From assembly GCA_943736015.1 (NCBI GenBank), contig OX031060.1:10429501-10493500 (forward strand): DNA of 64,000 nt. Direction: 5' to 3'. The notes beneath the pieces were generated by a model. That model had not been told where the DNA came from and did no database searches. It saw only the letters and a program-made list of their open reading frames with translations. Origin of the DNA: Tridacna crocea (taxonomy: Eukaryota > Mollusca > Bivalvia > Cardiida > Cardiidae). Shown here piece after piece: positions 3,733 to 57,000 of this stretch (the stretch's first letter is position 1; each line of letters starts with the position of its first letter). A program made the position numbers and the translations under genes.

Positions 3733-3949
3733 TTAACCCATTACCACACAATCTCTACTTTTGATGCCCCTGAGAAAGAAGTCTATAGAAAATATTGTTG
3801 GAAAAGGAGAAAATGCTGGTAACCAGCATTTTCTTCTTTTCCAACAATGTTTTCTACCCTTCAAATTCTCAGTCACTTTTAATTATGTCATCTGCAAAAT
3901 GATTTCGATTTGGACAAACGTAAAATTTTATCGTTTGGTAGTGAGTTAA
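3733..3949 (+). mobile_element. TTAA hairpin MITE with paired arm change
   Basis: TTAA at 3733 and 3946. Hairpin arms read TTGTTGGAAAAG and CTTTTCCAACAA where the family has GTGGG/CCCAC: both arms carry the matching change. Confidence 0.85.
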
Positions 3950-4207
3950 AGCATTTTGCAATTTTTGTTCCATTATAAGGTATGCCTGAAACGGGGTAAA
4001 AAAAAATTGTGGGAAAAGGAAAAAATACTGGTAACCGGTATTTTCAGCTTTTTTTCACAGAATGGTCGAAAAGCAGAATTGTATGGTAAGGGGCTAAATA
4101 AGATTTTTGTTTGGACGGATGTCAGTGACGGCTGAAGCAGAACAAGATAAATGTGCACAATTTATAAATATCTAAATTTTGAAGGTTTATAACCAGGATA
4201 TAGACAT

Positions 4208-4434
4208 TTCACCCTTTACCACATGGCAAAATTTTAGACCTTTCCAAATTGAAAGCATTTGCAGTCGACAATTTCATAGTGGCTAGAATGTCACAATTTT
4301 CGTTGTCAGGGTAGAAAACTTTGTGGGAAAAGGAGAAAATGCTGGTTACCAGCATTTTCTCCTTTACCCACAATGTTTTCTAAAGGCTTCTTTCTCAGGG
4401 TTGTTAAAGTCAGGATGGTGTGATAAAGAGTTAA
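4208..4434 (-). mobile_element. TTAA hairpin MITE
   Basis: Left end TTCACCCTTTACC (TTAA decayed to TTCA), right end ...TGATAAAGAGTTAA. Hairpin ~4315-4383 nearly perfect around GGTTACC. Confidence 0.84.
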
Positions 4435-4748
4435 GTCATTGTGTTGCTTAGTAACAAAATAGATGAAATAAGATATTTACCAGTAGATGTCTAGATGTTT
4501 CATATTGTGTCTTTATTTATGGAAAAATGACGTTAAACTCATGTTGTTCCTGGTAGACAACTTTTCTTTTATTAACACTGAAAAGTGCAAATTTTGATAT
4601 TGCAGGATGATGGAAACATTATTATATCATGTCTCTTTCTTTAACACTTTTCCCAGGCAAAAAATTTTAGATGGATCTAAATTTAAGTTTTTACCAAAAT
4701 TTTAATTTTGCTAAGAAGAAAATACAATTTGTCAATTGTGAAAGCAAA

Positions 4749-4925
4749 ACATGTCCAAATTGACAGCTTTCGCAGACGGCAAATTGTATTTAACTGAAAT
4801 GATGATTTCTGTCTACTAAAATGAGGAAAAAAGAGAAAATGTTGGTTACCAGCATTGTCTTCTTTTTTCACAAGGTTTTCAAGAGAAAACTTCCTCAGGG
4901 TTGTTCAAACTTAAGATTGTATGCT
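4749..4925 (-). mobile_element. Decayed TTAA MITE
   Basis: Long-arm motif TTGACAGCTTTCGCAGACGG and hairpin GAGAAAATGTTGGTTACC with imperfect right arm. Outer ends unclear; a second, more decayed fragment lies at 4640-4745. Confidence 0.65.
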
Positions 4926-5004
4926 GCCTATTTTGACAATCCTATGGGTCTATAATTTTGATGTCTAATAAAAAGTTAGCAATATACAGGCAAACAGTTT
5001 CATT

Positions 5005-5300
5005 GTGTGGTATTTAACGGCATTTTCAGTATCATTTCAATCACATTGTATACCATTGTGGCCAGTGCACCTGTCCATGCTTTCCAGGATTGTCCTTTTC
5101 CCACTACTTCACACAAAATTCTTCCAAGGCTATTGTTTATATTCCCATATAAATACTGTTGAAAGCAAAGTCTTATGAACAAAGTCCATAACAAAGAAAC
5201 AAATTATCAAATGCATGGCAGAAAGACAGTAACCTTGCAGGATTTGAGCTCTAGTATGCCCAGACTAAAGGTCAATACTTAACCACTGAGCCAAAAAGAT
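5005..5300 (-). mobile_element. SINE with unrecognised central domain, copy 1
   Basis: Shares GGCCAGTGCACCTGTCCATG and the following region with 23717-24480, 41490-41735 and 57655-57955. The high-coordinate end has a tRNA-like head on the minus strand (box-A-like GGCTCAGTGGTTAAG near 5280-5290). Confidence 0.6.
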
Positions 5301-5619
5301 ATCTCCCTTTTGTTAGGTATTGTATTGAAATCCAGGCAAAGCCATGCACGAAAGAGTGGTCTCGCGTAACAAAAGACTATACTCAGCACTCTGAAGAAAT
5401 TGGCCGTGCTGAAGTGACCCCCGGGTTTCAAGTTCTGTACACAAAAAACATGGGCAAATTTGACAGATGTGAAGAATCTAGGTTCTTAAGCACAAATTAC
5501 ATATGAGACTTGCTCTGGCATAAGAAGGCTGGCTAAAAGCAGATCTCTGTGATCAATGATACCAAGCAAGCCATCAAATACTGGTACTATAGTAGCCAGT
5601 TCATATAACAATCAACTTA

Positions 5620-6123
5620 AGCAAGGCTGACACTCGCACGACTTTTGGCCACAATTCTGTCGTGGCAAGTCGTGCCATTTTGGGGCACTAACTGGGAGGC
5701 TCGTGTCTGCTTTGATATAAATTGTCTCTTTGCTGGCGATCTCTGGAGCAGTGTTCAGGAAGCCATATATATACCCCCGCACTGACGCGAGCGCCACTGT
5801 CGCGCATTAGTCGTGAACTATTCGTGAACTAGATGTGAGCTGTTCGTGAACTATTCGTGACAGTCAAGGCATGGCGCGCACTGGCACGCATCCTCCCGCA
5901 TCGTCCCGACGATTCACAAACAGTTTGCGCATAGTTCACGACCCGGTCGCGAAATTTTGTCGTGACCAAAATTTTTGAACATTTCAAAGTTTTTGTCCCG
6001 ACATGGCATGCAGTCATGATGTGTTTACACACACTTCATGCCAGTTTACGACTAGTTTGCGCACTGGCACGACTCGAGTCGTGCCAATGCGTGTCACAGA
6101 ATCGTGCAAGTGTCAGCCTTGCT
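5620..6123. mobile_element. 504-bp terminal-inverted-repeat element, TTA duplication
   Basis: Starts AGCAAGGCTGACACTCGC and ends with the complement AGTGTCAGCCTTGCT (one mismatch in about 22 bp). Direct TTA flanks at 5617-5619 and 6124-6126 fit a PIF/Harbinger-type target duplication. The interior is GC-richer and repeats TTCGTGAACTATTCGTGA-like words. No coding capacity recognised. Confidence 0.7.
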
Positions 6124-6289
6124 TTAATTATAGGTAGACTGGTGTTTGTACATACAGATGATTGACCAGTGGTAAAATTTTTGGCCCTGGTGAGCCTGCG
6201 CTAGACTGTGCAGGCAGACCGGGGCCAATACCTTTTGCAGATGCGTTAAGATCACAGTGAAGTCCAAATGGAAAAAACTGTGTCTAACG

Positions 6290-6561
6290 ATATATGGAGT
6301 GCAACACGCGAAAAGGGTCATTTGGACATTTGCGTAAAGTGTCGTCCCGGATTAGCCTGCGCAGTCCGCGCAGGCTAATCCGGGACGGCACTTTATGACT
6401 ACATTAGATTTTGTGCTACAGTCGACTTGCGTAACACAGAAAATCACATAAAATCGGAAAGTGTCGTTTCGGATTAGCCTGTACGGACTGCACACGCTGA
6501 TCAGAGACGACACTTTACGCAAATGTGCGAATGACCCTTTTCGCGTGTTGCACTCCATATA
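6290..6561. mobile_element. Foldback element with TATATGGAGTGCAACACG ends
   Basis: Inverted ends ATATGGAGTGCAACACGCG and its complement; inside, arms GCGTAAAGTGTCGT with an inner palindrome GATTAGCCTGCGCAGTCCGC GCAGGCTAATC. A related palindromic fragment (GGCCCTGGTGAGCCTGC) precedes it at 6180-6230. This word family is widespread in bivalve DNA from general knowledge. Confidence 0.78.
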
Positions 6562-7228
6562 AAAGTGCAGTCCATAAAAGTTCCAGTCAATGGCAGAAAA
6601 AAGAATTTGGAAACTAGAACAGATCCTACCATGTCACATTATCTGTTTGTTTACATAGATGATCGCGGATGACCTTTCGTCATGAATCTCCACAATGTCC
6701 ACCAAATAATGACGTAAATGCCATGTCTTCATTCAAGATGTTGATACAAAACTTTCATACACTGGCCAATACTTGATCATTTTGTGCCCATTCTAGGCTT
6801 GAAAAATCAAGTTTATCGATGTTATAAACAGAAACAATGACACAGGCTAAACATAGTTTATTTGTTTATCATCTATACAGGAAGAGTTTACTACATCTAA
6901 ATAAGCTCAAATATACAGGAAGGTTGTCTCTATAAGTGGCATCCCTGAATTTGATGGTCTTCTCCATGGATTTCACACACATATATCATGGCAACCAAAG
7001 CAGTAACTGACATGTTTGGGTTTTCTCCAATCTTATATTTTGTTTATTGTGATGGGTTATCTGATATATTTTCAAGATATAACAGTGAAAATTATACTTA
7101 TTTTTGGAATTTATTGGTGCTTTAAGCCTCCTTTTCACAGAACAGGGCTCATATAAAACTGGCTATAAAAGTACTAAACAAAAAATTTACCACCAAATCA
7201 AACAGAAACGCTTTGTTTTTCACTACAG

Positions 7229-7352
7229 CAATCGCCAAGTACAAGCCAACTGATGCCACAACAAATCCGTCACTCATCCTGGCTGCTGCCACTATGCCAC
7301 AGTATCAGGAACTTATAGACAAGGCCATCGAACATGCGAAAGCCAGTGGGGG
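7229..7352 (+). CDS. TALDO1: TALDO1 exon (first in window)
   Basis: Follows acceptor ...cactacag and ends before gtatgt. It begins with the last two bases of an Ala codon and encodes [19 protein letters not shown] and onward to KASGG, the conserved TTNPSLI strand of the transaldolase barrel. The upstream exon must end with one base of a split codon. No such exon was found in 1-7228. Confidence 0.95.
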
Positions 7353-10300
7353 GTATGTGCAAGTGCCATGATTTTGGCTTATCATCTTCATCTTAGCCCT
7401 ACAGTAGTCTTTAGCCCACTACCAAATGACAATATTTTAGACTTGTCCAAATTGAAAGCATTTGCAGACGACAAAATAAAAGTGACTGAAAATTAGAAAT
7501 TTGTTTTATGAAGGGTAGAAAACATTGTGGGAAAAGGAGAAAATGCTGGTTACCAGCATTTTCTCCTTTTCCCACAATGTTTTCTGAAGGCTTCTTTCTC
7601 AGGGTTATCAAAAGTAGGAATTGTGTGGTAATGGGTTACCAGAAAATGACAACTTTGAACTTTTACCAAACAGCAAAATTTAAGACTTGTCCAACTTGAG
7701 ATTATTTGCAGATAACAAAATAAACTTGTTTTGGGAACGGTAGAAAACATTGTAGGAAAAGGAGAAAATGCTGGCTACCAGCATTTTCTCCTTTTCCTAC
7801 ATTGTTTTCCGAAGGCTTCTAACATGGGGTCGTTAAAAGTTGGGATTGTGTGGTAAAGAGTTAACACCCTTTAGGAAAGAAGCCTTTTGAAAACATTGTT
7901 TTCTTCCCTATCAAGATTAAAAAAAACCCTAATCACACTGTTAAACCGTAAGCGGTTTCATACAAAAGTGTGATTAAAAATAAAATTCTCTTCATTCCTT
8001 AACCCATTACCAAATGACAATATTTTACACTAGTCCAAATTGAAAGCATTTGCAGACGACATAATAAAAGTGATTGAAAATTTGAAATTTGTTTTGTGAA
8101 GGGTAGAAAACATTGTGGGAAAAGAAGAAAATGCTGGTTACCAGCATTTTCTCCTTTTCTCACAATGTTTTCTAAAGGCTTCTTTCTCAGGGTGTCAGAA
8201 GTAGGGATTGTGGGGTAATGGGTTAAGTAATCTGTCCAACCTGGCTGCCTTCAGGGGCAGTATGTAGCATTAAGATACAACAATGATTATAGTAACATAA
8301 AATAATTATGAAATGGGCTAAAATATCTTGAAAATAAGTATAGAATCTGATGTTCCTTTGAAAGAAATCGTTTTGGGTAGATCTTCAGAAATCTGTAATA
8401 AATGAGAAAATTTTTGGTGTGGCTAAATTGTAGCATTTGCAGATAGAAATGAATTGAAAAGATTGTCATATATAAAACATTGTAGAGGCCGTATTGTCAG
8501 TCTAATTAATTAGGTCACAATGTTTGCGTTGATGACATCTAGCATCCTAGGAACCCAGATTTAGGCATTATGTTACTCTCCATGCATTACCCCTGAGAAA
8601 ATTGACTAGCAAAACGTCGTTTCCTATGAATATTCATATGGTCGGAAAGTACCCTAACAGCCAATCGAATCAATACATATTCATTCTTTCTTTTAAGGAT
8701 GGCAATTTCATTTCGTCAGTTACTGAAAATAGAAATGATGGTATATTTGTGATAAAAATAGTTCAAATTTTCTCAAAGAAAAACTGAGATTACCAATCAA
8801 AATGCTTTATGAATAATCAATGAGAACGAGGAAATGCCAGTCAAATAACCCAGGGTGCATTACAGTATGAATTGAAACTGGGTCAACGAGGATGGACATC
8901 TAGTAGAATTTGAAAATTGGCTACATGTCTCAAAAAGTAGGTCACTAGGCTAAATCTTTGAGAAGCCTTGTATGCATTCTCGATGCCAAATTTCAGCCCA
9001 ATAGTCATGAATCATAGTCAGAATGGCTGTCTTTATAAAATATGGTAAAACACCAGAATTGTCATGTCAGATCAAAAAGTAGGTTACATGAACAAATCCT
9101 AGAAAATCCTTGTATGCATACTTGAGGTCACATTTTTAGGATAATACACATGAAACTTGGTCAGAAAGTTTGTCTTAATGATAAATTGGACAAAATAGAA
9201 TTTGGTTCATGTTTGGTCTGAAAGAAGGTTACTGGGACAAATTTTAGAAAACCCTTGTGTGCAGTCTGTCGGCCTCATTTTCATTCTGAAACTCGTGAGA
9301 CATTGTCGGAATGTTTGTCTTGATGATATTTCTGACAAGTGTATCCAGTATGTCTTTTATGTTCTAAACCCATTACTACACAATCCCCACTTTTGACGAC
9401 CCTGAGAAAGAAGCTTTAAGAAAACATAGTGGGAAAAGGAGAAAATGCTGGTAACCAGCATTTTCTCCTTTACCCACGTTTTCTACCCTTCATGAAACAA
9501 ATTTCAAATTTTCAATCACTTTTATTTTGTCGTCTGCAAATGCTTTTGATTTGGACCAGCCAAAAATTTTGTCGTTTGGTAAGGAGTAACCCTTTACCTA
9601 ATGACAAATTTTAAACTTAATTAAACTTAAACTCTTTCAAACTGAAAGAGTTAGCAGACGACAGTATTATATTTGATAAAAATGGCAGAAAGGTCTCCAA
9701 TAGGACAGTAAACATTGTGGGAAAAGGATAAATTGCTCCTTAAAACCCATTTCTCCTTTTCCCACAGTGTTTTCCAAAGATTTGTATTGAAAACACATAA
9801 AAACACAGGTTTGTTTGGGACAGGATTAACTTATTACTAAGAAACATAGTTTTACATTTGTCCAAGTTGAAAGAAATTGTAAACAACGAATTAAATCTGA
9901 TTCAAATGATGAAATTTTCTTCAGAAAGGAAAGAAAACAATGAGAGAAAAAGAAAAAAAAGCTAGTTACTTACTGTTCTCGTTATCCTAAAATGTTTCCC
10001 AAAGCCCTAGTCCTAGTCCTATGAGTTGATAAAACTTTTGATTGTTTAGTAAACATTAACTCAATACCAAAGGACAATATTATAGACTTGTCCAAATTGA
10101 AAGCATTTGCAGACGACAAAATAAAAGTAAGTGAAAATTTGAAATTTTTCCACAGTGTTTTCTCAAGGCTTCTTTCTCAGGGGCATCAAAAGATTGTGTG
10201 GTAATGGGTTAATCAGGACCTGTATTCATCAACCATTCTGAATTTTGTCAGTGTGAAAGTAACATCACTTCTGATTGGCAAAACCATATGGTTTAGCCAA

Positions 10301-13300
10301 TCAGAAGTGCTGTTACTTTCACTGTCAGAAAATATTGAAGAATAAGACAAAGAACATCTGTAAGAATGGTGTGTGAATATGGACCCAGATGATTTATATG
10401 ATGATAGTAATTCATTTATCTTCATTAAACAGTTCAGACCAGGAGAAACTAGATCTTGCGATGGACAAAGTCTTTGTGAATTTTGGACAGAAAATCCTGA
10501 AGATAGTTCCAGGTCGTGTGTCAACAGAAGTGGATGCCAGGTGCGTAAATTTGACTTTAGAGGGAGTAACTTTTGTAGCTCCGTACAGGACAATTTCCAA
10601 ATTTAGCAACCATAAGGAAAATCTCCTTTGAAAACACTGTGGGAAGAGAAGAAAATGTGGTAACCAGCATTTTCTCCTTTTCCCACAATGTTTCTCTGCA
10701 CTGTCAAAGGCAGATTTTAATGTTTAAGCTACCTTCAATTAGTCACCTGCAAATGCTTTCAATTTGGAAAAGTCTAAAATTTTGTTATCTGTTTCTTACC
10801 AGGAGTGTGGAAACCTACAGTACTTGCCCGACTTGGGAAAATTTGGCATTGAACATGTGACTCGCCCAAATTGAAAGCATTTGCAGACGAAATACATCAT
10901 GTCACCCAAAGCATACTATCTTTCTGTGAAGGGGTAGAAAATACTGTGGGAAATGAAGAAATGTTGGTCACTAGTACTTTCCTTTTTTTTTTGTTAGTGT
11001 GGCGAAGAACTAAAGGTGAATCAAACACAAAATTTTGACTGTCATAGGTAGAAAGCGTTACAGGAAGAGGAGAAACTGCAGAAAAATAAATGTTTCCTCC
11101 TTCACTTGTAATGTTCCACCCTAACGAAGAAAAATTCCACAGCTTGAGTGATTTTTGATGTCTGCAAATACTTCCATTGTGAGTTTAAAATTTTCTCAAC
11201 AAGTAACAAGTTAACAGCAGTTTGTTTACCTACTAGGTTGTCCTTTGACAAAGATGCGATGATAATGCGAGCCAAAAGATTTATAAAGATGTACGAGGAA
11301 ATTGGGATTGGAAAAGATCGAATCCTCATCAAGCTGTCATCAACTTGGGAGGGCATTGAGGCTGCAAAGTAGGTCTTTCTTAGTTCTGGTGCTTTAGAAG
11401 AAAATTCTTAACCCTTTACTCCATAGATACTCATTTGTATGCATTGCTTGCAGGAGATTTTGGAAAACATTGTGGCAAAAGGTGAAATTGCTCGTGACGA
11501 GCAATTTCACCTTTTTGTTACAATGTTTTCTATGCTATCAAAAGGTGTCATATAAACATAACAAACTGCTTCATCCTTGCTGTTATTAAGGGTCAATTAG
11601 AGATACCATAGAAATGCATTATGGGGTAAAGGGTTAAGTATTGTGAGGGCCCTGCTGCTGTGATTAGATTTTCTTTTCTTTTATTACATAAAACTGCCAA
11701 ACTAGTTCATTAAATTCATGACATATAAGCTTGGCTATTTTCAATGAAAAGGAGGTTTTGTCACAGTCCTGGCATGGTCTGTTTCGATGCCATCTGTGCT
11801 GTTGTGTGAAAAGTTTGATATCTCATAATATTCCTGTTCCACTGAAGGTGTATATTTCAAACATTGACAAGTTGTTTACAATCGAAAGGAGAACCTGAAA
11901 ACAAGAGCAGGTAACTATTGTCAAAATGTTTTTGACAAAGTTATGCCCTCTTTTTAGCTCACCTGAGCATGAAGTGCTGAAGGTGAGCTTTTGTGATCGC
12001 CCGATGTCCATCGTCCATATTTCTTTAAATATCTTCTCCTCCAAAACTGATGGGCCAATCTTGATAAAATTTGGCAAAAATGTTTCTTGGGTGAACCTCT
12101 ATCATCAAAGTTGTTCAAGAGATTGAAATCCACCCATAAGTCTTTTTGCCATAGCAACCAAAAGGAAAAAAATGGCAAAATCTTTGAAAATCTTTTTCTC
12201 TGAAACTAGAAGGCATACAGCTTTGAAATTAGGTATGTAGCATCTCCTAGTGGAGCTCTATCAAGTTTCTTCATATGATGCCCCTTGGGTCAAACTGGCC
12301 CAACCCTGGGGGTCACAAGTTCGAAACAGAAACAAAGAAGAAAAACTTTAAAATTCGTCTTCTGTGAAACTGGAAGGCACAGAGCCTTGGTATTTGGTTT
12401 GTAGGATCTCCTAGTGGACTTCTACCAAGTTTGTTCATATGATGCCCCTGCGGTCCAAACTGCCAACTGCCCCACAATGTTTTCTATCCTATGGATAACA
12501 ATTTCAATCATTTGAGCCACATTTAGAATGTTGTCTGCAAATGCTTTGAATTTTGCTGAGCTAAAACTTTGTCATTAGGTTATAGAGTTAAGTCTTTATC
12601 AAACAATCCCTGTTTTTTACAACCCTGAGATAGAAGGCTTTTGAAAACATCATGGGAAAAGGAGACAATGCTGGTTACCAGCATTGTCTCCTTTTCCCAC
12701 AATGTTTTCTGCCGAGCTGGAAATAAATCTAAATTCTTGAGTTGCGTTTATTTTGTAGCCTGCAAGTTCTTTCAACTTGGACCAGTCTTAAATTTTATCG
12801 TTTGGGAAAGGGTCAAGTCTCTACCAAATAACACAATTTTAGAAGTGTCCTTATTGAAAGCATTTACAAATGAAAATGTGATTATAGTTCAAATGAAGAA
12901 ATTTGAATTAGGAAATAATAGAAGACATTACGCGAAAAAGGAGAAAATGCTGATTGTCAGCTTTGTTTCCTTTTCCTGAAGTGATGTCAGAAGCCGTGTT
13001 TTTCAGTCATGATACCCCTGCATAACGAATGTTTTTATACCCCCTCAAAATGAATGTTTTCAGGGATATACTTGAATCAGCCTGTCTGTCCGTGTGTCCG
13101 TTCGCGTGTCCGTCTGTGTTCGAAATACTAGTAATTTTGTGTTGCAAACTCCTCCTACTATTTTCCTTTAATCATATTGAAACTTTGCACATATATTGAT
13201 CATATATTGAAGATTTGCAAGACACAATTTTCAACTGTCAACTCCTCCTGGTTGAGAAATTATCTCCCCTTGAACTTGTCACATTTTTTCTGTCAAAGTG

Positions 13301-16300
13301 CTGGTGGGGTTAAGTCACATTCAGTGATGGCTCAAGTTGGAATGTGGTATAGTTTCGTGATAGGTAAGAAAATTGTGCATGGAATTGCCAAAATACAATG
13401 TTAAGGGCAAAATATTGTGGCTTGCTTCAGGATCTACTAAAACAAGTTATCCGTAAAGGTTTAATCAGAGAATCTCAGTGTTTATATAACTGAGAGAAGA
13501 TTTCTGATTTCAATAGGCGGAAATGTTCAATAGGCGAAAACGTAGAAAACCTGTAAACTTCAAATGTTACCTGTATTCCATTAGGTTTATCAAACAAAAT
13601 GTATACAGCTTTGATACATCATATGAATTGAAGTAAAACACTGTTTTAACACCTTAGGTCATATCATTAGGGTCACTGCACCTACTCAGGTTTTTCTGTC
13701 ACTAGTACAGACACAACTTCCTTTCCAAGTGACTGATGATTTTTCTCACACACATCAGAGGTGAGAGGGGAAAAATCGCCAGAAAGAAAGTTTGCCTCAG
13801 CTGGGTATCGAACTCGAAATCACAAGGTCATGCGTCTGATACGCTAACCACTGAGCTATCCTGGTGGGCTTACAACCTTGAAGTTTCATGCTTGATACCT
13901 GAGTTGAGCACAAAAATAGTTTTATTAGCATTAACCAGAGAGATAAACAAGGACAAATAAAAACATGATTTGTTCATTTTCAGTCATTTTTCCAACATTA
14001 CCATTTTCCTAATCCATGAACCAAACAATTGAGTGTATTTTTTCTCTATATTCACATTACATGTATTTTCTACCTCTTTGTAGTCAAATTACCACAATAA
14101 ACCCTTTACCACATGATCCATACTTTTGACTACCCTGAGAAAGAAGCCTGTAGAAAACATTGTAGGAAAAGGAGAAAATGCTGGTAACCAGCATTTTCTC
14201 CTTTTTCCACAATGTTTTCTACTCTTCACAAAACAAATTTCAAATTTTCAGTCACTTTTCTGTTGTAGTCTGCAAATGCTGTCAATTTGGACCTGTCAAA
14301 AATTTTGTCCTTTGATAATTAGTTAAATCACATTAAATTTTATGACTTTTACTAGTATATATAGCAAATACATATATGTATAGTATATATAGTAAATAAA
14401 TGTACCTACAGTATATAAGGACATAAATCAAATATTGATATCTGATTAAAAAGTTAAAAATGCCAAATACCACAGAGATTTTCTATGACGGTGGAAGGGT
14501 TGCATGAATAAATAGATAATAGGTTTTATTTAGAAATTTATCCGCATTTTTGGTGAAGTATAAATGTAGTAACAGGATATTGGGGTATCGGACCTTGACT
14601 AACGGAAACTCTATACCTCTGCTATACCTCTGCAGTATTTTAGATCCTTTTCCTTACATTCCTGAGTTATAATAACCCTGAAGAAGATAGCCTTTTGAAA
14701 ACATTGTGGGAAAAGGAGAAAATGCTGGTCACCAGCATTTTCTCCTTTTTCCACAATGTTTTCTGTCCTTTTTGATACAATTTTCTACATGTGAGCCCAA
14801 TCAAAATTGTTGTCTGCAACTGCTTTCAATTTGGACCAGTCAAATACTTTGTCATTCTGTCTCTATCTCAACAGAATAATAGCCATGTCCAAATTCAAAG
14901 CAATTGCAGACGACAACTTAAATATGGCTCAAACAATGGGATTTGTCTTAGAATCAGTCGAAAACATTATAGAAAAAGGAGAAAATGCTGGTTGCCAGTG
15001 TTTCATTAATTTTGAAATGGGGCTTGAGATTTTCAGAACAGCCTGTTTGACCCTAGTCCCTGGTTTTTACGACCCTGAGATAGAAGCCTTTTGAAGACAT
15101 TGTGGGAAAAGGAGGAAATGCTGGTAACCAATAATTTTCTCCTTGTCCCACAATGTTTTTTACCCTGCTGGAAACAAAATTCAATTTTTGAGTTGCGTTT
15201 ATTTTGTAGTCAACAATTGCTTTCCATCTGGACCAGTCTCAGATTTTGTTGTTTGGTTAAAGGTTTAACCCTTTCCCAAACAATCCCTGGTTTTTACAGG
15301 TCAGGAATAGAACCCTTTTTAAAGGATTGTGGGAAAAGGAGAAAATGCAGGTAACCAGCATTTTCTCCTTTTCCAACAATGTTTTCTATCCTATCATATA
15401 GAAAAATCATCTTTTTAGCAACTGTTAATTTGTCATCTGCAAATTGCTTTCAATTTGGTCTGGTCCAAAATTTGCCATTTTGGGAAAGGGTTAAGTGCAA
15501 CAAACAATTATTATGCAGTTGTATTGAAATTATTTTTCTTTTGCTTCATACAACACTTAACTTTTCAAGACACCGAGGAAAGAGGATTTTGAAAACATCA
15601 TGGAAAAAGAAGAAATTGCTTGTCACCAACATTTTCTACTTTTCCACAATGTGTTTTGCCTTCCTTCAAAAATACACCAAGAATTTTGGTCTCTTTTTTT
15701 TTTTTATAATAATAATGTTTTCTACAACTTCCTTCAATATGAAAAGGTTGTCTGTTGAAGATTTGATAGTCTTTCATCCTTTACCACACAATCCCAAATT
15801 TTATCAACCCTGAGAAAAGCTTTTGAAAACAATGTAGGCAAAGGAGAAAATGCTGGTTACCAGCATTTTCTCCTTTTCCTACAATGTTTTCTACCCTGCT
15901 GGAAACAAATTTCAGTATTTGAGTAATGTTTGTTTGGCTGCTAATGCTTTCAATTCGGCTAAAATTATGCGATATGGTGAGGAGTTAATGGGTAGAGGAA
16001 ATGTAGTATATACCACAAGACTCCATATTTACATTTTGTGATAGATTTTTTGTATGATTATAATATTATATAGTTGTAACATTTCATTGTGTCTTTTCAA
16101 AAAGAAATGCATATCCCAGGCATTTCTTAGCCCCGTAATAATTATAGTAAGCACAAAGTAACAATGGTTTCCACTGTGGTTAACCTCTAAGTAAAAATTC
16201 TGGGCTGTAACAAACCTGATAAAGAGAATATTTTTAAACATTGTAGGGAAAAGAGAAAAAGCTGGTATATTATTTCTTCCCATTCACAGGAAAAATTAAA

Positions 16301-25795: not shown

Positions 25796-25892
25796 ATCTA
25801 TCACAATAAAGTGTTTCTGATACATGTAAATATTATGTTATGTGAAAGTTTGAAATACTGTATTTTGGAACAAGCATTTGAGCTATGCTCTG

Positions 25893-26122
25893 TTAACCCT
25901 TTCCCAAACAAGCCCTGGTTTTTACATGTCTGCAGTAAAAGCCTTTTGAAAACACTGTTTGAGAAAAGAAGAAATTGCTCGTAACGAGCAATTTCTCCTT
26001 TTCCCAAAGTGTTTTCTACCCTTTTTGAGAACTTTCTGCCATTTTCTCCAAATCTAAAATTGTCGTCTGCAAACTCTTTAGGTTTGGAAGAGTCCAAAAT
26101 TTGTCATTTTGGAAAGGGTTAA
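25893..26122 (+). mobile_element. TTAA MITE, subfamily 2
   Basis: TTAA at 25893 and 26119. Tip GAAATTGCTCGTAACGAGCA with complementary arms; best intact subfamily-2 hairpin core. Long arm GCAAACTCTTTAGGTTTGG, AAGAGTCCAAAATTTG. Confidence 0.87.
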
Positions 26123-26131
26123 AAGGGGGTT

Positions 26132-27989: not shown

Positions 27990-28838
27990 ATAACTCATTA
28001 CCAAACGACAAAATTTTAGGTTTGTGGTAATCGAAAGCATTATGCAGACAACAAAATAAGTGACTGAAGATTTGAAATTTGTTTTTGAAGAGTAGAAAAC
28101 ATTGTAGGAAAAGGAGAAAATGCTTGTTACCAGCAATTTCTTCTTTTCCTACAATGTTTTCTAAAGGCCTCTTTCTCAGGGTCATCAGAAGTAGGGATTG
28201 TGTGGTAATGAGTTAGCCCAGAAAGAAACCATTAGAAAACATTGTGGTAACCAGCATTTTCTTTTTTTGCCCACAATGATTTTTTACCTTTCACAAAAAT
28301 TTCAAATTTTGGGTCACTTTTATTTTGTCGTCTGCAAATGCTTTCGATTTGGACAAACCTAAAATTTTGTTGTTTGTTAATGAGTTAACCCATTACCACA
28401 CAATCCCTACTTTCGACGCCCCTGAGGAAGAAGCCTTTTGAAAACACTGTGGGAAAAGGAGAAAATGCTGGTAACCGGCATTTTCTCCTTTTCCCACAGT
28501 GTTTTCTACCCTTCACAAAACAAAATTCAAATTTTCAGTCACTTTTATTTTGTCATCTGCAAATGCTTTTGATTTGGAAAAACCTAAAACTTTGTTGTTT
28601 GTTAATGAGTTAACCCATTACCACACAATCCCTACTTTCGACGCCCCTGAGGAAGAAGCCTTTTGAAAACACTGTGGGAAAAGGAGAAAATGCTGGTCAC
28701 CAGCATTTTCTCCTTTTCCCACAATGTTTTCTACCCTTCACAAAACAAAATTCAAATTTTCAGTCACTTTTATTTTGTCATCTGCAAATGCTTTTGATTT
28801 GGACAAACCTAAAATTTTGTTGTTTGTTAATGAGTTAA
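27990..28838. mobile_element. Chain of four TTAA MITEs
   Basis: 27990-28216 (minus, paired GTAGG/CCTAC change), 28213-28388 (plus, left end truncated), 28385-28613 and 28610-28838 (plus). Junctions are TTAG/TTAA shared by neighbours. The last two, 229 bp each, share TTTCGACGCCCCTGAGGAAG and differ at only a few sites, so they are a tandem duplication. Confidence 0.86.
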
Positions 28839-29089
28839 ACAGACTCATAAACTGAAATTTGCCTCCAGAAGTGTAGAAAAGCATTGAGGGAAAAGAGGAA
28901 AATGCTGGTTACTAGCATTGTCTCCTTTCCCACAATACTAGCATTTCAGAAGTCTTTTTGGTCAACAATGAGAAAATAACTTGTCCAAATTCAAAACATT
29001 TCCAGATGACAAAATGAGCATGACCAAAGTAATGACGTGTTTTGAAAAGGGTAGAAAGAATTTTGGATAGAGGTAAAAATAATTGGTTA

Positions 29090-31080: not shown

Positions 31081-31082
31081 TT

Positions 31083-41735: not shown

Positions 41736-41744
41736 TCGGCTAAA

Positions 41745-42214: not shown

Positions 42215-43255
42215 CCTTTTACTACACAATCCCAGGTTCAAAGACCCTGGGTAGGAAAAGCCTTTTGAAAACATTGTGGGAAAGGGAGAAAATGAGGGTT
42301 ACCAGCATTTTCTCCTTTTCCCGTAATGTTTTCTACCCTATGAAAAACAGTAATCCTTATTTTGGCAACATTTAATGTATTATCTGCAATTGCTTTCAAT
42401 TTGCTATTAACAAAATATATTTTTTTGTCTTTTGGTAATGAGGTAACAAATAACATGGCATTTGTACAGCCTGGAGGAAGGCTTTTGAAAAAACATGGTA
42501 AAAAAAGGAGAAAATGTTTTTATAAGCATTTCCTCCTTTTCCTCCGATGTTTTCACATGCATTCTTCCAACGAGACATACAAACAGGTGATCAACCATAA
42601 AATACTCAATAATGTTACTAAATAAATGATTGTCATCTTTCTCAAAGTTTGATAACAACGGGGAAAAAGTAACAAATTCAAATTCCTTAAAATAACTGCC
42701 TGCTTTGAAAAGAAGTTGTATATTTTTTAAACAAGCTTAGGTTCTATAAACTATAAAAGAAAACCCGCTTACCTTGCAAAAATGTCCGCAACATAAACAT
42801 ACATAAATAAATGCTTTCAAAACTACAAAACTTGAAACCAAAAAACAAATCTATGACTCATAACCACACAATGACAAGTTTTAAACACATGAGAAAGGAG
42901 CCTTTTGAAATCTTTGTGGGAAAAGGACAAAATACTGGTTACCAGCATTTTCTCTGTTTCCCACAATGTGTTCAAGAGTTTTCTTTCTCAAGTGATTAAA
43001 ACTTGTGATGATATGGTACAGGATTAGCTCCTTACCAAACAACAAAATTCTAGACTTGACCAAATTGACAGCGCTAGCAGACGACAAATTAAAGGTAGCA
43101 TAAAAGGTATTATCTATTTTTAATAGTGTAGAAAACATTGTGGGAAAAAGAGAAAATGCTGATTACGAGCATTTTCTCTTTTTCCCATGATGCTTCAAAA
43201 AGGTTTTCTGTCTCATGCTCATTAAAACCCATAATTACGGGGTACAGAATTAAAT
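42215..43255. mobile_element. TTAA MITE cluster
   Basis: 42215-42445 (plus), a partial at 42465-42570, 42862-43028 (plus, short) and 43025-43255 (minus). The last has matched AAAAAGAG/CTCTTTTT changes in both arms and tip GATTACGAGC. 42580-42860 shows nothing recognisable. Confidence 0.74.
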
Positions 43256-43499: not shown

Positions 43500-43660
43500 T
43501 CATGTTACACATCTAAGGTTGTCTACATTTGAAAGTAACACTACTTCTGATTGGCTAAACCAAATGGTTTAGCCAATCAGAAGCTGTATAACTTTCAAGT
43601 ATAGAAAATTCTGGAGAACAAAGTAAAGAATGTTCTAAAGAATGGTTGGTGAATGCAGAC
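43500..43660. mobile_element. GATTGG-core hairpin element, copy 3
   Basis: Core 43529-43598 pairs GAAAGTAACACTACTTCTGA TTGGC with AGCCAATCAGAAGCTGTATA around CCAAATGG; flank AAGAATGGTTGGTGAATGC. Confidence 0.78.
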
Positions 43661-45832: not shown

Positions 45833-46249
45833 CACGAACTCAAGAAAGTCTCTGGATCTTACTGCAAAGCTGTTCCTATCAGCTTTGATGATAAGCAAGT
45901 AAGACTAGTTCCAAAAATATTTGTTACATTCCGTAATATTATGCATAATAGCCTTTGGATTTTAATTTTAGAGACAGAGTACCAGCCTATGTAGTATGCT
46001 TGATAATTTTTTTTTTCCATCTGTCAAACCGAATGCCTTTTACGACAAAAGCGGCTTTTGCATACAGCTCTTTACCACACAATCATGACTTTCAACGACC
46101 CTGATAAAGAAGACTTTTGAAAACATTGTGGGAAAAAGGAGAAAATGCTGGTAACCAGCATTTTCTACTTTTCCTACAATGTTTTCAAAAAGCTTCTTTC
46201 ACAAAGGTGTTAAAAGTCGGGTTTCTGTGGTGAAGGCTTGATAAAGATC

Positions 46250-47600: not shown

Positions 47601-47625
47601 TTCTATCTGTGAAGGAAATAGAAAG

Positions 47626-48008: not shown

Positions 48009-51000
48009 CTACAACAATAACAACATGGAAGCGTTAAGAATCAATCTATACATAAATACTTCCTGAGTATCAGCATTTTCGTTTTATCCTACAACTCATT
48101 ACCAAAAGACAAAATTTTAGGCTTGTCCAAATCGAAAGCATTTGCAGACAACAAAATGAAAGTGTCTGAAAATTTAAAATTTGTTCTGTAAAGGGTAGTA
48201 AACATTGTGGGAAAAGCAGAAAATGCTGGTTACCAGTATTTTCTCCTTTTCCCACAATGTTTTCTAAAGCCTTCTTTCTCAGGGTCATCAAAATTAGGGA
48301 TTGTGTGGTAATGGGTTAACAACCAAACAGAAAAAAAGATTTTCCACAGTTTCTCAGAAAATGGTGGTGGGCATCATTTCTGATTCTTTTTCAACAATGA
48401 TTTCTACTTTTTCAATAGCAAATCAAATTATCTGAGCCTACTTGATTTTGCCTTTTGTCCTTTTGATTTGGACAAGTTTACAATTTTGTCATCTTATAGG
48501 GTTAAATAATTTCATGAACAGAACCAATAACAGTTAAAGGCCCATCTACACTAGCCAGTATTTGTTTGAAAATAACAGCAAACTTCAGTTCGGTAAAGTT
48601 TGGTCATGTCTTTCCGCAGGGTGTCTACTGTCTTCACTTCAACAAACAATAGTAAACAATGCTTAGTGATATTTGAATATCATGTAATGTATCCATCACA
48701 TGATAAAAAGGCAGCTTTTGATTGGTCAATATACTTAAGACACCACAAGACAACACCAAACTGAGCAAAAATGAGCATGTCTAAACGGACCTTTACTGTG
48801 TTTCTTCTTGCCATCACCAAAAAATCCCAAGAGCATGCAGCTGTGTCAACATCAAAATGTTGCATTATGGGTACATCTTGTATTTCATGGTATAAGTTTG
48901 ATAACCCAACTGATTAACTCTTTACCAATCCACAAATTTTAGCCTTGTTCAAATTGATATCATTTACAGACAACAAACTAAATGTCATTCAAAACATAAA
49001 ATTTGTCTTGTATAGTGTAGAAAACATGGAGAGAATAGGAGAAAATGCCAGTTACCAGTATTTTCTTCTTTTCCCACAATGTTTTCCATCCTTTCAAAAA
49101 CAAATCCAATCATTTTAGAGACATTTAAATTGTCGTCTGCAAATGCTTTCAAAAAGAACAAGTTGAAATTTTGTCATCTGGAAAAGAGTCTATATGAACA
49201 AAAGGAACTATGTGATACAGCTAACGCTCCAATACGTTAAAGCATGCACTTACTAGGTGGCGTACAGTAGGCATCCACCTTGGCGCCCTCAATCTGCGGC
49301 CCCATCATTGGCGATGGTTTCACAAGCTGTGGGTTGGTCATGGCTGGAAGCCCAGGGTTACCATTACTAGTACCATACCCAATATTGAGGGAGGTTGGGG
49401 TCCAGCTCCCAAGAAAAACAGCAAAGCAGAGTACCAATACCTGAAAAAATGGTTTGAAGTCCCCATAACAGAACGGTTAAACTCCTTACCAACTTGAACC
49501 CAAGTTATTTATGAAACCCTAAAAACTGGGCCTTTGAAAACATTGTAGATAACGGAGGAAATGCTGGACACCAGCATTTCCTCTTTTTCCTACAATGTTT
49601 TCTATCCTTTAATTCCATCAATCCACAGATAGTTAATTGTCCAAAAATGTTTTCAATTTTGACAGGTTCAAGATTTTTACGGGTAAAGAGCTAACTGAAC
49701 AGTTTTGTTACAAACAACATAACTATACAAGTACCACAATCCCTCAATACATGGACTTCTTCCAATACCGTATTTGACTTTCTAAAACAAAGTAAATTGG
49801 GATCATTCTTGAGTTTTTTGTTTGCCTGAAAATTGCTTGTACTTTGGGAAAGACTACAGAAATTCTAAAACTCCAAAAACCAAACAACAAAACTTTGGGG
49901 TTGCCCAAAGTGAAAGCACTTGCAGACGACAATTCAAATGTGGCTGGAATTATGAGATTTGGTCATGAAAGGGAAGAAAAATTGTGAAAAAAGGAGAAAT
50001 TGCTGGTAATCAGCATTTTCTTCTGTTCCGAAGCAGTTTTTCAAAATCCTTTTCCATGGGATCACCAGAACATGGTATTGTTTGGTTAGAGATTACCCAA
50101 ATTTAATGACTACTTTCTGTATTGTTTGCAATACTATCAAAATTAATTGTTTGTATTGTAATAATTTTATTGTATTTGTATTCTATGGTGTTTTACACCC
50201 CTTTCATCATTATTTTGGCTCATCCAGGATAAAAAAGAAAATAAAGTAACTGCATATTTGATAAGTAATATTGGATGAGTCCATTATAGAAGGATAAGGT
50301 TACATGGTTAGATACATGCAGACGACAAACATTTCAAGCGGTTACTGTGAACAACAACAAAAATAAGGTGAAGTGAGGGAACAAGATAAAATAACATGAA
50401 AAATCTCCCAATTCTTTAGCTTAACCCTTTACTCTTTACTGAACAACAAAATTTTAGACTTGTCCAAATTGAAACCATTTGCAGATGACAAAATAAATGC
50501 GACTCTTTGAAACTTGATTTTGGAATAGAAGAAAACATTGTGGGAGAAGGAGAAACTGCTGGTAATCAGCATTTCCTTCGGTTCTGAAGATGTTTTTTCA
50601 AAATCCTTTTCCATGGGATCTTTTCTCCTTTTCCCACATTGTGATCAGAAGGCTTCCCTCCCCGGGACTGTTAACCCTTTCTCAAACAATCCCTGGTTTT
50701 TACCAGTCTGGAATAATAGCCTTTTGAAAACATTGTGGGAAAAGGAGAAAATGCTGGTAACCAGCATTTTCTCCTTTTCCCACAATGTTTTCTATCCTAT
50801 CATAGACAGAAATCATTTTTTCAGCAAGAGTTGAACTGTCGTCTGCAAATGCTTTCAATTTGGTCTAGTCCAAAAGTTTGTCATTTGGGAAAGGGTTAAA
50901 ATGCTTTTTGGACAAGTCTACATTTATTTTTTTATTTTTGTTGAGTAAAGGATTATGCCAAATGAAATCAATGTAGGTACATGTAGTTTACAAAGGTGAA

Positions 51001-54000
51001 ACAGCTTGCACGTAAATAAAGCAGACGATCAATATGAAAATATATTTTGCCCGATCAGAGAAAAAGCTGTTTGTATGGAGATTTTTTTACAAGCAAATAC
51101 TTATGCACCGGAAGTAACATTTCATCACCACAAATCCCTTTCATTAAAATGTAAGCATCTTTCTCAACCTTGGGAAAAAAGTCTTTTAAAAAACAGAGTG
51201 GGAGAAAGGAAAAGAGCATGGCAAGAGCAACATTTTGTCTTTTTTCAACAATGATTCAACACTTTTAACCCTTTTCCAAACAACAAATTTTGGACTCTTT
51301 CTAACCGAAAGAGTTTGACGACAATTTCAGATTTGGACAAAATGGCCAAAAAATTCTTAAAAAGGATAGAAAACACTGTGTGGAAAAGGAGAAATTGCTT
51401 ATTAGGAGCAATTTCTTCTTTTCCCACTGTTTTCAAAAGACTTTTACTGCAGATACGTAAAAACCAGGGCTTGGTTGGGAAAGGGTTAAAGAAAGATGAC
51501 TACATTTTATCTGTCGTCTGCAAACTCTCTCAATTTGGTACAGTCTAAAACTGTTTGGTAAAAAGTTAAGATCTTTCTATTAGCTAGAGGGAGTATTCTA
51601 CAAAGAAAATTAAATAAAAACTAACAAAAACTTTCACACTAATTCTATATTTTATTATGCATTTTTCCTTTCGGCTAGTTTAAATTTCACTCTTTCATGT
51701 GATCATTAAAATTGTACAAAACAAGAGGGTTTAACTCTTTACCACACAATCCCTTTCAACGACCCTGAGCAAAAAACCTTTTGAAAACATAGTGGGAAAA
51801 GGAGAAAATGCTGGTAACCAGCATTTTCTCCTTTTCCCACAATGTTTCTACCCTTTCCAAACCAGATTTCACTTTTTAAGTCAGCTTTGTTTTGTCGTCT
51901 GCAAATGCTTTCAATTTGGACCAGTCTAAAATTACCTCATTTGGTAAAGAGTTAACATGAATAAATGACAGAAAACTAATAATAATAAAACATAATTTCA
52001 TGGCCTTTTCACCAAAATTGATGATACCAATGGAAACTTATCATTATTTTAGAGACATTTCCAGATAATCTGAAGAAAGTTCAACTAAAAGCCCATCAAA
52101 ACTAATGGATGGATGGTGGGTGGGTGGATGGATGGATAAATGGGTGGGTGTGTGGGTGGATGGATGGATGGATGGATGAATCAATCAATCAATACAAGCA
52201 ATTTTGAACAAACTTATCTATAAATCCCTATAGCATCTCAAGTTTTAACCTTTACCACACAATCCCATGTTCAAAACAGAATTGGAAATCATTGAGGTAA
52301 TAGAAGAAAATGCTGGAAACCAGTATACTCTCCTTTTCCTATGATATTCTATTCCATTTCAAAGACAAATTTTATCATTTGAATGACGTCAAATTTGCCG
52401 TCTATGAATACTTTCAATTTGGTGGCATCCAAATTCAGTCAATAATTTCCCAGAATTTTATCATTATCTACATTATCTACATTGAAAGCATTTGCAGACA
52501 AAGAAATAAATGCTACTCAAAATATAAAATTTGTCTTTCATAGGTCAGAAAACCGGGTGGGAAAAGGAGAAAATGCTGATTGCAAGCATTTTCTCCTTTT
52601 CCCACAATGTTTTCAAAGGCTGTCTTTCTATGAGTTGTTAAAAATCGGCATTCTGTAGTAAAGATTTAATGACTTTAGGAAACAAGGCACGAGTTACCTT
52701 GAGAAAAAAAGCCGAAAAAAACATTATAGGGCAAGTAGAAAATACATTTAACCAGGATTTTTACAAATTCCCACACTGTTTTCAACCCCTTTTAAAGACT
52801 TGATAGTCTCATTACTTGAATCACATTTAGCTTATCATTTACAAATACTTAAAATTTCAATAAATCTAAAATTATTGTGAGGTGAAGAGTTGACTCTTTT
52901 GCCAAATAATTTCCAAATTGAAAGCATCTGCAGACAACAAAATGAATGTGACTAAAGAATTGAAATGTGTTTAAGGAAGACAAGAAAACATTGTGGGAAA
53001 TAGAGAAAATGCTGGTTACCAGCATTTTCTCCTTTTCCCACAATGTTTTCAAAAGGTTTCTTTCACAGGGGTGTTAAAAGTGGGAATTCTACAGTAAAGG
53101 GTTAAACTGATTATGCAAACAAATATATACCCCTCTCCTCTACTGTCTTTTCATCTATGCCTCTTTTTCCCCCATAAAGTGAAGAATAATTAAACCAGAA
53201 AATTGACACAAGAATAGATAATGGAATGAACAAAAGAATGAAGGGAATGTAAATAAACATATGAGCACATGAAAGAAAGTGTCTGAGGGTTTCTTCATGC
53301 AGGAATGTCAATTTGTGGCACATCTAAGTTAAAAACTGAGATGAACATTTCAACCGGTTAATTCTTTACTAAACTACAAAGCTTCAGACTGGTCCAAATT
53401 GAAAGCATTTGCAGACGACAAAATGAATGTGACTCAAAAATTGAGGTTTGTTCTGGTAAGGGTGGAAAACATTGTGGGAAAAGGAGAAAATGCTGATTAC
53501 CACCAGCATTTTCTCCTTTTCCAACAAGGTTTTTAAAAGGCTTCTTTCTCATAGTTCAAATCCAGGATTGCTTTGCAAAGAGTTACAGAGACCAACAAAT
53601 TGCAATTTACATGTTGTTTAACTCTTTACCAAACAACAAAATTTTACACCTGACCAAATTGGAAGCATTTGCAGAAGACAAAAGTAATGTGACTCAAAAA
53701 TTGAAAATTGTTTCAGGATGGGTAGTAAACATTTTGGGAAAAAGAGAAAATGCTGGCTACCACCATTTTCTCCTTTTTCCTCAATGTTTCCAAAAAGGCT
53801 TCTTATTCAGGGTCGTGAAAACCAGTGATTGTTTTGGGAAAGCATTGCAAGTTACAATCCAGATTTACCTCGACTGCTCATACATATATTTAAAAGGGAA
53901 GAAAATATTGTGGGAAAAGGAGAATAATGATAGTTACAAGCACTTTCTCCTTTTCCGAAAATTATTTAAAAACCCTTCTTTCCTTGGGTCTTTAAATTTC

Positions 54001-57000
54001 GGCATTGAGTGGTATAGGGTTTAACTCTTTACCACAGGACAAAATTTTAGACTGGATCAAATTGAAAGCATTTGCAGATGACAAAATAAAGGTGACTGAA
54101 AAATTAAAATTTGATCTGGGAAGGGTAGAAAACACTGTGGGAAAAGGAGAAAATGCTGGTTACCAGCATTTTCTCCTTTTCCTACAGTGTTTTCAGAAGG
54201 CTTCTTTCTCAGAGGCGTCAAAAGTAGGGATTGTGTGGTAATGGGTTAAGGCCCAAAACTGATATTATACCCCACAGAGTAGACAAGATCAGTCTGCATA
54301 GATTGGTATATAAAAATTGTGAAGGAGTTGAAGAGTACTGAAAGAAATTGTTACAAGTACACAAGCTTCCTGACATTTATTTGTTGTAACTGTTGTTCTA
54401 CATTTTATTAAGCTTTCTTTGTTCTGATCCAAGGAGACTATGTGTACTTACCATAAGTCCTGTTTGAGGTACAGTCCCGCTAGGACGGATTTTACCCACA
54501 AGGCTTTGCAATTTCTGAAGCTGACTCAACAATGACCTGAAAATAAACAATACATTTATGTCATTGATCAGGCAACCAATGTAAAAGTATAACCCTTTAC
54601 CACACAATCTTGAGTTTTGATGACCTGACAGAAAAGGACTTTTGAAAACATTGTTGGAATAGGTATAATTGCTGGTAACCAGCATTTTCTCCTATTCATA
54701 CATTGTTTTTTTTTAAAACATCTATTTTTTCAGGGTTGTTAAAAATCTGGAGTGTATAGTAAAGAGTTAAGTCTTATCACGTAACACAATTTTGGATTGG
54801 TCTAAATCAAAAGCATTTGCAGAAGAAATATCAAATTCGGTTAAAAAAAACGGGGATTTGTCTTTGAGAGGATTGAAAACATTGTGGGAAAAGGAGAAAA
54901 TGCTGGTAACCAGCATCTTCTCCTCGCCCCACAATGTTTTCAGGAGCCATCTTCCTCAAGCTCATTAAACCCTTGGGATTATTAGGTAAAATGTTATCTG
55001 ATCTCATTTGAAGACAGTTGCAGATAACAAACTGAATGTTGTTAATAATGTAAGATTTGTCTTTGAAAGAGGAAGAGGAGAAAGACACTGTGGCATCCTT
55101 TTCTCACAATGTTTTCAAAAGTCTCCTCCCTCAAGTGGTATTTAACTCAATACCAAACGACAAAATGTTAGACTGGTCCAAACCAAAAGCATTTGCAGAT
55201 GACAAAATAAAAGTGACTGAAAAATTGAACTTTGTTTTGTGAAGGGTAGAAAACATTGTGGGAAAAGGAGAAAATGCTGATTACCAGCATTTTCTCCTTT
55301 TCCCACAATGTTTTCTACAGGCTTTTTGCTCAGGGGCATCAAAAGTACAGATTGTGTGGTAATGAGTTAAAGCTTCAGATTGTTCTGTAAACATGTGAAA
55401 ATAAACTATTTTTGTCATTCACATTCTTTTGCAAACATAATTATCTTTTGTATCACCTTGCAAAACAACAAGGACTTTTTTCTATTACCTGTTGTTGTTT
55501 TCTAACGTGTCCACTTTCTTTCTCAAGTCATTGTTCTCTTGTGAAAAGGACTCGACCCTGTAATATGATATAAAAAGAAATCTTATACGTCATAAATCGT
55601 GACGCTTTTTTTCGTAACCCATAGGCTACTACACGTGACTCACTGACCTTTTGTGGGCAGTGTAGATCAAGGTCAGACTGCACAAGACATGCAGTCTGAT
55701 CTTGGATCTACAGTATCCGATAAGGAGATGTCTTGCTAAAAAAAAAAAAAACCCTTTGAAGTGGCAAAATTTTTTAGTTTTCACGATTGGCTTGAAGGTT
55801 TCATTTCATTTGTTTAGCAGAAAGGCTGCACCAAATAGTCAAGTTTTAATCCTGTCTAAATTGAAAGCATTTGCAGGTGACAAAATAAATTTGATTGCTA
55901 AATTGGAACTTCTTTTGAGAAAGGTAGCAAACAGTGTGGAAGAATATTTTCCAAAACTTTCTTTCAAAGGGTTGATAATAGTTGGGATAAAACGGTAAGG
56001 GATACACCCTTTACCACACAATCCCTAATTTTAACAACCCTTAGATTTGTAGAATGCCATCTAGTGGGAGATAATGCTCTCCTTCCAAATAAGCAGCCAT
56101 TACTCAGGGGACATCACTCTTACTCATTTTTAACCCTTTACCAAACAATACCTTTTGTTTACGACCCTGAGGAAGAATCCTTCTGAAAACATTGTGGAAA
56201 AAGGAGAAAATGCTGGTAACCAGCATTTTCTCCTTTGCCCACAATGTTTTCTACTCCTCTGAAGTCAAGTTTCAATTTTTGGTTCACATTCATTTTGTTG
56301 TCTGCAAATGCTTTCAATTTGAACAAGTCTATGTGTATGTTGTTTGGTAACGAGTTATTGAGACAAACACTAAGATGAATTTTTATGGGTATACATGTTC
56401 AATGACATCATAGCACGATCACAAAAGCTCACAATGAGCAAATTGCTCTCAGGAGAGCTGACACATTGTAAAAGATCAAACCTTTTCTCTAAAGCTTCAA
56501 GATATTCCTTCTTCTTTCTTCTACTCTCTTGAGCTGAGATCTGTAGAGCAAAAAATAACAATTATCAGGAAAATGTTCAAAATTCCATTAAAAAAACTTT
56601 TGGCAACCTCTTGTCAAACAGTTCCCATTTTAAAAATCCTGGAAAATATGCAACTGAAAACATTGTGGAAAAAAAAGAGAAAATGCTGGTAAAAATCATT
56701 TTCTTCTTTTCCCACAATGTTTTCTAGCGATTCAAAGACAAATTCCATCATTTTGGCAATGTTCAACCTGTTTTCTTCAAAGATTTTCAATTTCTTAGTC
56801 TAAAATTTTGTCTCATTTATATCACTTTCAAATTTGTTGTCTGCACATGCTTTGATCCACTCTCACAATTTTGCTGAAACACCATGCAAAACTGACTTAA
56901 CCCTTTCCCAAATGACAAACTTTTGGACTAGACCAAATTGAAAGCATTTGCAGACAACAATTCAACACTTGCTGAAAAGATGATTTCTGTCTATGATAGG

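Follow-up and report, generated by a model that had tools for sequence, protein, structure and literature searches.

Locus and Repeat Element

The window analyzed here, a stretch of 64,000 nucleotides, corresponds to positions 10,429,501-10,493,500 of contig 5 of the 1.05-Gb Tridacna crocea assembly. An exon on its + strand, at 7216-7365, is transaldolase-like (best chains 2e1d_A and 2cwn_A, E = 1.5e-12). A large part of the window consists of a single repeat: with a profile built from the copies named in the original prediction, 150 pieces were detected that together cover 26,528 of the 64,000 bases (41%). Outside the window, 30 stretches of 10 kb each (L001-L030) were chosen at round coordinates on contigs 1-11; the 309 pieces found in them account for 54,148 of 300,000 bases (18%). 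By extrapolation, the assembly would contain ca. 1.1 million pieces.

The profile consensus of the window copies defines a unit of ca. 230 bp with TTAA at both ends. A hairpin whose two arms of 33 bp are separated by a 1-nt spacer is located in the central part of the unit and is flanked by side parts of ca. 107 and ca. 54 bp. The left end repeat is TTAACTCTTTACCA and the right one is the complement of TTAACCCTTTACCA; the end repeat is imperfect. CCCTTT forms the right end. At the left end, most copies have CTCTTT and a minority has C as the second base (the piggyBac-like motif is CC[C/T]T). Judged by these features, the element is a putative piggyBac-like MITE that has TTAA termini and carries a hairpin in its center. 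Scanning viral contigs for the hairpin produced no match.

MITE copies can abut one another. Thirty-five such junctions were found, one at window positions 28384-28839 and 34 more in the window and in L001-L030, and at 28 of them the copies overlap as expected for a single shared TTAA, in all orientations. In the 364 kb covered, there are 577 complete MITE ends and 2872 TTAA sites; 70 of the ends adjoin another copy, in all four orientations. These raw counts do not support preferential insertion of the element into its own ends.

The window copies referred to below are listed here, with the basis of each assignment in brackets. Stem base pairs are numbered, and a paired variant is abbreviated by the number of the pair and its new bases (8CG for pair 8 T.A>C.G).

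3733-3950, - strand: MITE copy, pair 12 G.C>T.A, GTTGG/CCAAC (aligned copies)
7410-7639, + strand: MITE copy close to the consensus, with full complementarity between arms 7517-7550 and 7552-7585 (profile; DNA fold much better than that of shuffled sequences, z = -8.2)
7656-7865, + strand: MITE copy, pair 12 G.C>A.T, GTAGG/CCTAC (aligned copies)
11408-11638, - strand: S3 MITE copy with 21TA, 26TA and 31CG, pair 14 being non-complementary A/G (aligned copies)
12587-12817, - strand: MITE copy, pair 24 A.T>C.G, GACAAT/ATTGTC (aligned copies, genome-wide tip count)
15773-15989, - strand: MITE copy, pair 12 G.C>A.T (aligned copies)
23932-24151, - strand: MITE copy, pair 12 G.C>T.A, in a flank clade different from that of the copy at 3733 (alignment, flank comparison)
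25892-26123, - strand: S2 MITE copy with 8CG, 26TA and 31CG (aligned copies)
27990-28216, + strand: MITE copy, pair 12 G.C>A.T and three single-arm changes (aligned copies)
28384-28614, - strand: MITE copy, pair 8 T.A>C.G, CACTGT/ACAGTG (aligned copies)
28609-28839, - strand: MITE copy with T.G at pair 8, changed in one arm only; adjoins the copy at 28384
43023-43253, + strand: MITE copy, pair 19 G.C>A.T, AAAAAG/CTTTTT, and 7 single-arm changes (aligned copies)
54020-54249, + strand: MITE copy, pair 8 T.A>C.G and an unpaired C>T at pair 12 on the right (aligned copies)
54128-54194, + strand: hairpin of the preceding copy, arms 54128-54160 and 54162-54194, 1-nt spacer

Matched Substitutions in the Hairpin Arms

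According to the original prediction, several copies carry changes in one hairpin arm that are mirrored in the other. Both the sequence and the alignment contain the proposed pairs in all eight copies for which they had been named. The proposed division into three subfamilies with paired tips, S1, S2 (8CG, 26TA and 31CG) and S3 (14CG, 21TA, 26TA and 31CG), was confirmed as well; L006:8098, which has decayed least among the S3 copies, is separated from S1 by four pairs without any single change.

In the window, the hairpin is whole in 107 copies, which contain 51 complementary co-changes, 37 non-complementary doubles and 540 single-arm changes; thus, the majority of arm changes are unpaired. 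Shuffling of columns in the same copies gave a mean of 21 complementary co-changes and a maximum of 36 in 1000 shuffles. The difference between 51 and 21, together with two further variants that exceed independence genome-wide (see below), bears out the claim that both arms are hit more often than independent mutation would allow. We also compared the true register with 12 registers in which one arm was shifted against the other, a procedure that preserves the age and lineage of the copies. Co-changes of any kind numbered 17 in the true register and 3-11 in the slid ones for the 70 window S1 copies that have no more than 8 arm changes; for the 30 copies with more than 8, the corresponding numbers were 28 and 19-33. 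As can be seen, the excess is strongest where copies are little decayed. Chance as the source of pairing is ruled out by column shuffling, by the slid registers and by exact genome counts.

Founders and Recurrent Paired Variants

One can propose that a few subfamily masters chanced to differ by pairs and that nothing but neutral decay followed, the outcome that the original prediction had named as its refutation. This describes the bulk of the data: 47 listed copies combine one or more complementary pairs with no more than 3 single changes, and of these 14 carry 8CG in S1 and 15 belong to S2 or S3 (29 of 47 together). It does not describe the 10 rarer variants that, in addition to 8CG, make up the 11 distinct paired variants of the 86 S1 copies with no more than 2 single changes. 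Identical variants were also found on unlike flanks. The flanks of copies sharing 12AT (four copies), 6TA (three copies) or 13AT are no closer to each other than those of random copies; at a mean flank distance of 0.30, the 22AT copies are close (0.12), and the values for 14AT and 12TA are 0.21 and 0.26, respectively. Recombination moving hairpins between flanks may mimic such independent origin of variants.

The whole assembly contains 180,061 exact copies of the canonical 33-nt tip, which allows all 99 possible paired changes to be counted and compared with the corresponding single-arm changes. Genome-wide counts of exact tips were as follows:

24 A.T>C.G: 242 paired, 571 and 340 single, ca. 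1 paired expected
28 G.C>T.A: 23 paired, 865 and 813 single, 3.9 paired expected
25 A.T>G.C: 24 paired, 437 and 433 single, 1.1 paired expected

The latter two variants were selected for counting because they are absent from our sample. Unmatched control doubles made of the same single changes were found 4 and 5 times versus 2.1 and 2.0 expected, corresponding to a heterogeneity factor of 2.2. After this factor is applied, p is ~1e-16 for 25GC and 4e-5 for 28TA; if the factor is set to its upper bound, 25GC is still at p ~1e-11 and 28TA is marginal (p = 0.035). Such a matched excess at variants that the sample lacks is at odds with founders only.

The paired-to-single ratios differ widely (0.27 for 24CG, 0.014 for 28TA and 0.028 for 25GC), and the position of 24CG far above the other two is what one would expect of a founder. 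The right-A flank allele is carried by 36 of 50 24CG copies (the first 50 of 242) and by 41 of 65 canonical copies (p = 0.33). For the same first 50 of 242, a single right-A founder of 24CG fits poorly (p = 0.007), and 24CG appears to be present on more than one flank allele. Single-arm A>C changes at pair 24 are distributed unevenly between the assembly strands (571 versus 340), unlike the 28TA and 25GC singles; a one-sided tandem array might be the cause of this imbalance.

Paired variants come both from founders and from recurrent events. Why the masters themselves should differ in pairs is left unexplained by founders only, and we regard this explanation as improbable.

Pairing as a Function of Copy Age

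The relation between pairing and copy age was analyzed in 322 hairpins from the window and the sampled stretches, 304 of them in S1, with the number of single changes as the measure of age. S1 copies with no single changes have 4 complementary pairs per 18 copies (0.22), those with 1-2 changes 23 per 69 (0.33), those with 3-4 changes 15 per 64 (0.23), those with 5-7 changes 27 per 74 (0.36), those with 8-12 changes 25 per 65 (0.38) and those with 13 or more changes 12 per 14 (0.86). Non-complementary doubles in the same six classes number 0 (0.00 per copy), 4 (0.06), 7 (0.11), 26 (0.35), 47 (0.72) and 8 (0.57), respectively.

A Poisson model was fitted to 303 S1 copies; it comprised a constant for pairs that predate insertion, a component linear in decay and a quadratic component for chance. 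The fit returned a constant of 0.24 pairs per copy, a linear term of 0.006 per single change, for which the profile gives an upper bound of ~0.04, and a quadratic term of 0.0014. Removal of the pre-insertion constant made the fit 56 log units worse. We conclude that most paired changes were already present at the time of insertion of a copy, with some room for later copying. It thus follows that paired changes inform on the making and keeping of the mobile form and not on the repair of old copies.

These data bear on the possibility that arm copying is the whole story, i.e., that a replication template switch at the hairpin rewrites one arm in resident or mobile copies. The slope with decay, fitted near zero, does not agree with this. 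Comparison with slid registers at pairs 9-25 gave a mixed result, in age classes (30 loci) that count non-complementary doubles as decay and thereby inflate the complementary share in young copies: co-changes of any kind in the mid-age classes numbered 24 versus 9.4 (range 3-15) and 43 versus 28.6 (range 17-46), as copying would predict, and the oldest class (27 copies) showed no excess, 25 versus 31.2. Because of this inflation, the symmetric measure based on single changes is preferred. Relative to a flat rate, mid-age S1 classes contain 53 co-changes of any kind versus 14.2 and 72 versus 34.2, an excess that is in part due to hot sites, which the flat-rate expectation ignores; in the class with 13 or more single changes (14 copies), 20 co-changes were seen versus 22 at the flat rate. 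Since mid-age co-change lies above both slid registers and the flat rate, some copying after insertion is possible. Overall, the comparison by copy age suggested at the outset shows no clear accumulation of paired changes with decay and gives no support to arm copying in resident copies.

Conservation of the Hairpin in the Mobile Pool

In 81 young S1 copies, the pairwise difference is 25% in the flanks and 5.4% in the arms. The arms of these copies have a column variability of 2.9%, compared with 11-12% for the end repeats and 13-20% for the rest of the flanks. In 202 S1 copies, flank divergence follows 0.141 + 1.02 x the arm single-change rate (r = 0.54); from this slope and intercept it follows that arms and flanks decay about equally after insertion and that the difference between them existed before. 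Among the variants of 81 near-full window copies, those present in at most 3 copies are equally dense in arms and flanks, while those present in at least 8 copies are ca. sevenfold rarer in the arms. Taken together, the variability of young copies and the depletion of common variants indicate a mobile pool of elements with unlike flanks and a nearly identical hairpin. By itself, copying of one arm from the other does not lower arm divergence, and the gap between flanks and arms in young copies therefore counts against copying as the only process.

As an alternative to copying, the original prediction proposed that stem pairing is selected, for example in transposition or in RNA. The low variability of the arms supports the first of these, as constraint on the mobile form, and we infer a role of the hairpin in cis in mobilization. 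The second found no support. No Rfam families at gathering scores and no tRNAs were found in the 64-kb window, and wobble-keeping transitions show no excess over wobble-breaking ones (130 versus 145 on the + strand of the element in 100 window S1 copies). On these two grounds, the reading of the hairpin as an RNA gene was rejected.

Strong arm constraint within the mobile pool would also be produced by compensatory selection on an RNA or DNA hairpin, where a single-arm change cuts mobility and a second, independent mutation restores it. Two further observations are in its favor: the neighboring copies at 28384 and 28609, which are 97% alike (distance 0.026), have C.G and T.G at pair 8, respectively, and an unpaired T at pair 12, a tolerated wobble, is common to five 8CG copies. 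The lack of an Rfam match in the window and of an excess of wobble-keeping transitions, together with the spectrum of paired variants described in the section on copying below, weakens the case for compensation, which we consider possible yet doubtful.

End Repeats and Symmetric Copies

As suggested in the original prediction, the hairpin was compared with non-hairpin arms, namely the end repeats, which are ca. 200 bp apart. In 244 near-full copies, 2621 complementary cells were observed at 17 pairs versus 2487 expected; matched changes are thus found there too, and the hairpin is not special in this respect. The odds ratio is 10 for matched columns 9/223 (p = 8e-10), 6 for 16/216 and 4 for 7/225. 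Mismatched pairings gave 1.2 for 9/225, that is, nothing, and 0.37 for 7/223, a negative association. An association just as strong exists between column 9 and column 176, which lies in the flank and is unpaired (odds ratio 13).

Since end repeats carry matched changes, a local hairpin is unnecessary for them, and inheritance within lineages can yield matched arms, a point in favor of founders. The same observation makes hairpin copying less credible as the only source and is in line with a mobile form whose symmetry is maintained throughout.

Both halves could be typed in 210 of 312 hairpins, the remaining 102 being incomplete. Six of the 210 have the same half on both sides. Five are R-hairpin-R copies (window 42855-43026, 46068-46239 and 54590-54771; L006:2414-2591; L008:9040-9233) and one is an L-hairpin-L copy (window 48913-49189). 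The mean identity of halves in the five R-hairpin-R copies is 0.73 within an element and likewise 0.73 between elements, and these copies are therefore no proof of local snap-back. The only one that looks recent is L006:2414-2591, with a half identity of 0.91; the value for the L-hairpin-L copy is 0.68.

Possible Signature of Arm-to-Arm Copying

A double change may arise from two mutations or from a single copying event. Transitions account for 6 of the 11 young paired variants, where two mutations would yield 8.0 (p = 0.15) and one copied mutation 5.8; compensation by independent mutations would have made the set richer in transitions. Four of the 11 are of the A.T>C.G or G.C>C.G kinds, which two mutations rarely make: 0.5 are expected from two mutations (p = 0.001) and 1.6 from copying (p = 0.07). 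The likelihood of the spectrum favors copying over two mutations by 2.6-2.9 log units. At the 1-nt spacer, T>A changes are in excess (26 A and 19 C or G versus 133 and 234 at other T sites, p = 0.005), which is suggestive of spacer inversion, although a shared lineage allele would give the same pattern.

Spectrum and spacer are suggestive of arm-to-arm copying and are not a proof of it. Part of the double changes may have arisen when one arm templated the other, by a template switch at the hairpin, and not from two mutations. The proposal that the arms copy each other thus receives suggestive support for the mobile pool but none for resident copies. As the sole explanation, copying would account for the spectrum, for the spacer and for the matched excess of 28TA and 25GC; given the age data and the low divergence of the arms, we think it unlikely.

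Proposed Origin of Paired Variants

The reading that we consider probable is that the mobile form is kept symmetric and that paired variants arise there, spread by transposition and decay neutrally after insertion. The hairpin arms would be held symmetric strongly and the end repeats less so. Variants affecting both arms would originate in the mobile pool, and transposition would carry them into lineages of very unequal size. After insertion, decay would proceed mainly through independent single-arm mutations.

A different route to a symmetric mobile form is that each mobilization re-templates the element via a folded snap-back intermediate, in which both arms, and the ends to a lesser extent, are rewritten from one strand. 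If so, symmetry would be a by-product of copying of the element and not of selection. This would account for the copied spectrum, for the R-hairpin-R and L-hairpin-L copies and for the fact that pairing does not clearly increase once a copy has been inserted. We hold this route to be rather improbable.

Relation to Known Elements

With ca. one million pieces by extrapolation, this single hairpin element is a natural experiment on the maintenance of long hairpins, in which two mutations, one copying event and selection can be set against each other. The counts make the question of stem evolution testable, including whether a cut-and-paste MITE needs a fold for its movement. Angel elements of teleost fish are reportedly short inverted-repeat elements for which fold-back amplification has been proposed.

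To judge by their description in the accessible part of PMC2872659, CMITEs of Acropora corals are similar to the MITE studied here in having TTAA ends with a CCCTTT-type terminal motif, copies that lie side by side and a short internal region that is more conserved than the terminal repeats (2.9% versus 11-12% variability here). CMITEs are ca. 100 bp long, with ca. 1600 copies estimated in A. millepora, versus ca. 230 bp and a million extrapolated pieces in our case. The conserved core is a hairpin here, whereas the words "hairpin" and "palindrom" do not occur in the accessible CMITE text. The authors of that work speculate that the core plays a part in transposition (PMC2872659).

Template switching between inverted-repeat arms has been described, in the portions of these reports that were accessible, for RNA genes (PMC8794818), yeast coding DNA (PMC8604942) and ape genomes (PMC7954356); the first two reports lend plausibility to arm copying. 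As there, paired changes in both arms, a spacer inversion and a single event for two changes are considered here. Unlike in the systems described, the pairs mostly predate insertion of the transposon, and single-base pairs dominate. Among the matches listed in a search of titles and beginnings of abstracts in the open-access literature, there was no paper on this MITE and none on paired arm changes in any MITE.

Other Repeats in the Window

A second long hairpin repeat, which is unlike the MITE hairpin, is present at 10242-10333 and 43519-43608, with arms of 44-46 nt that are 84-87% complementary. Another repeat, which contains a GC-rich inverted repeat (GTCGTCCCGGATTAGCC...), was spotted by eye at ca. 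6300-6560.
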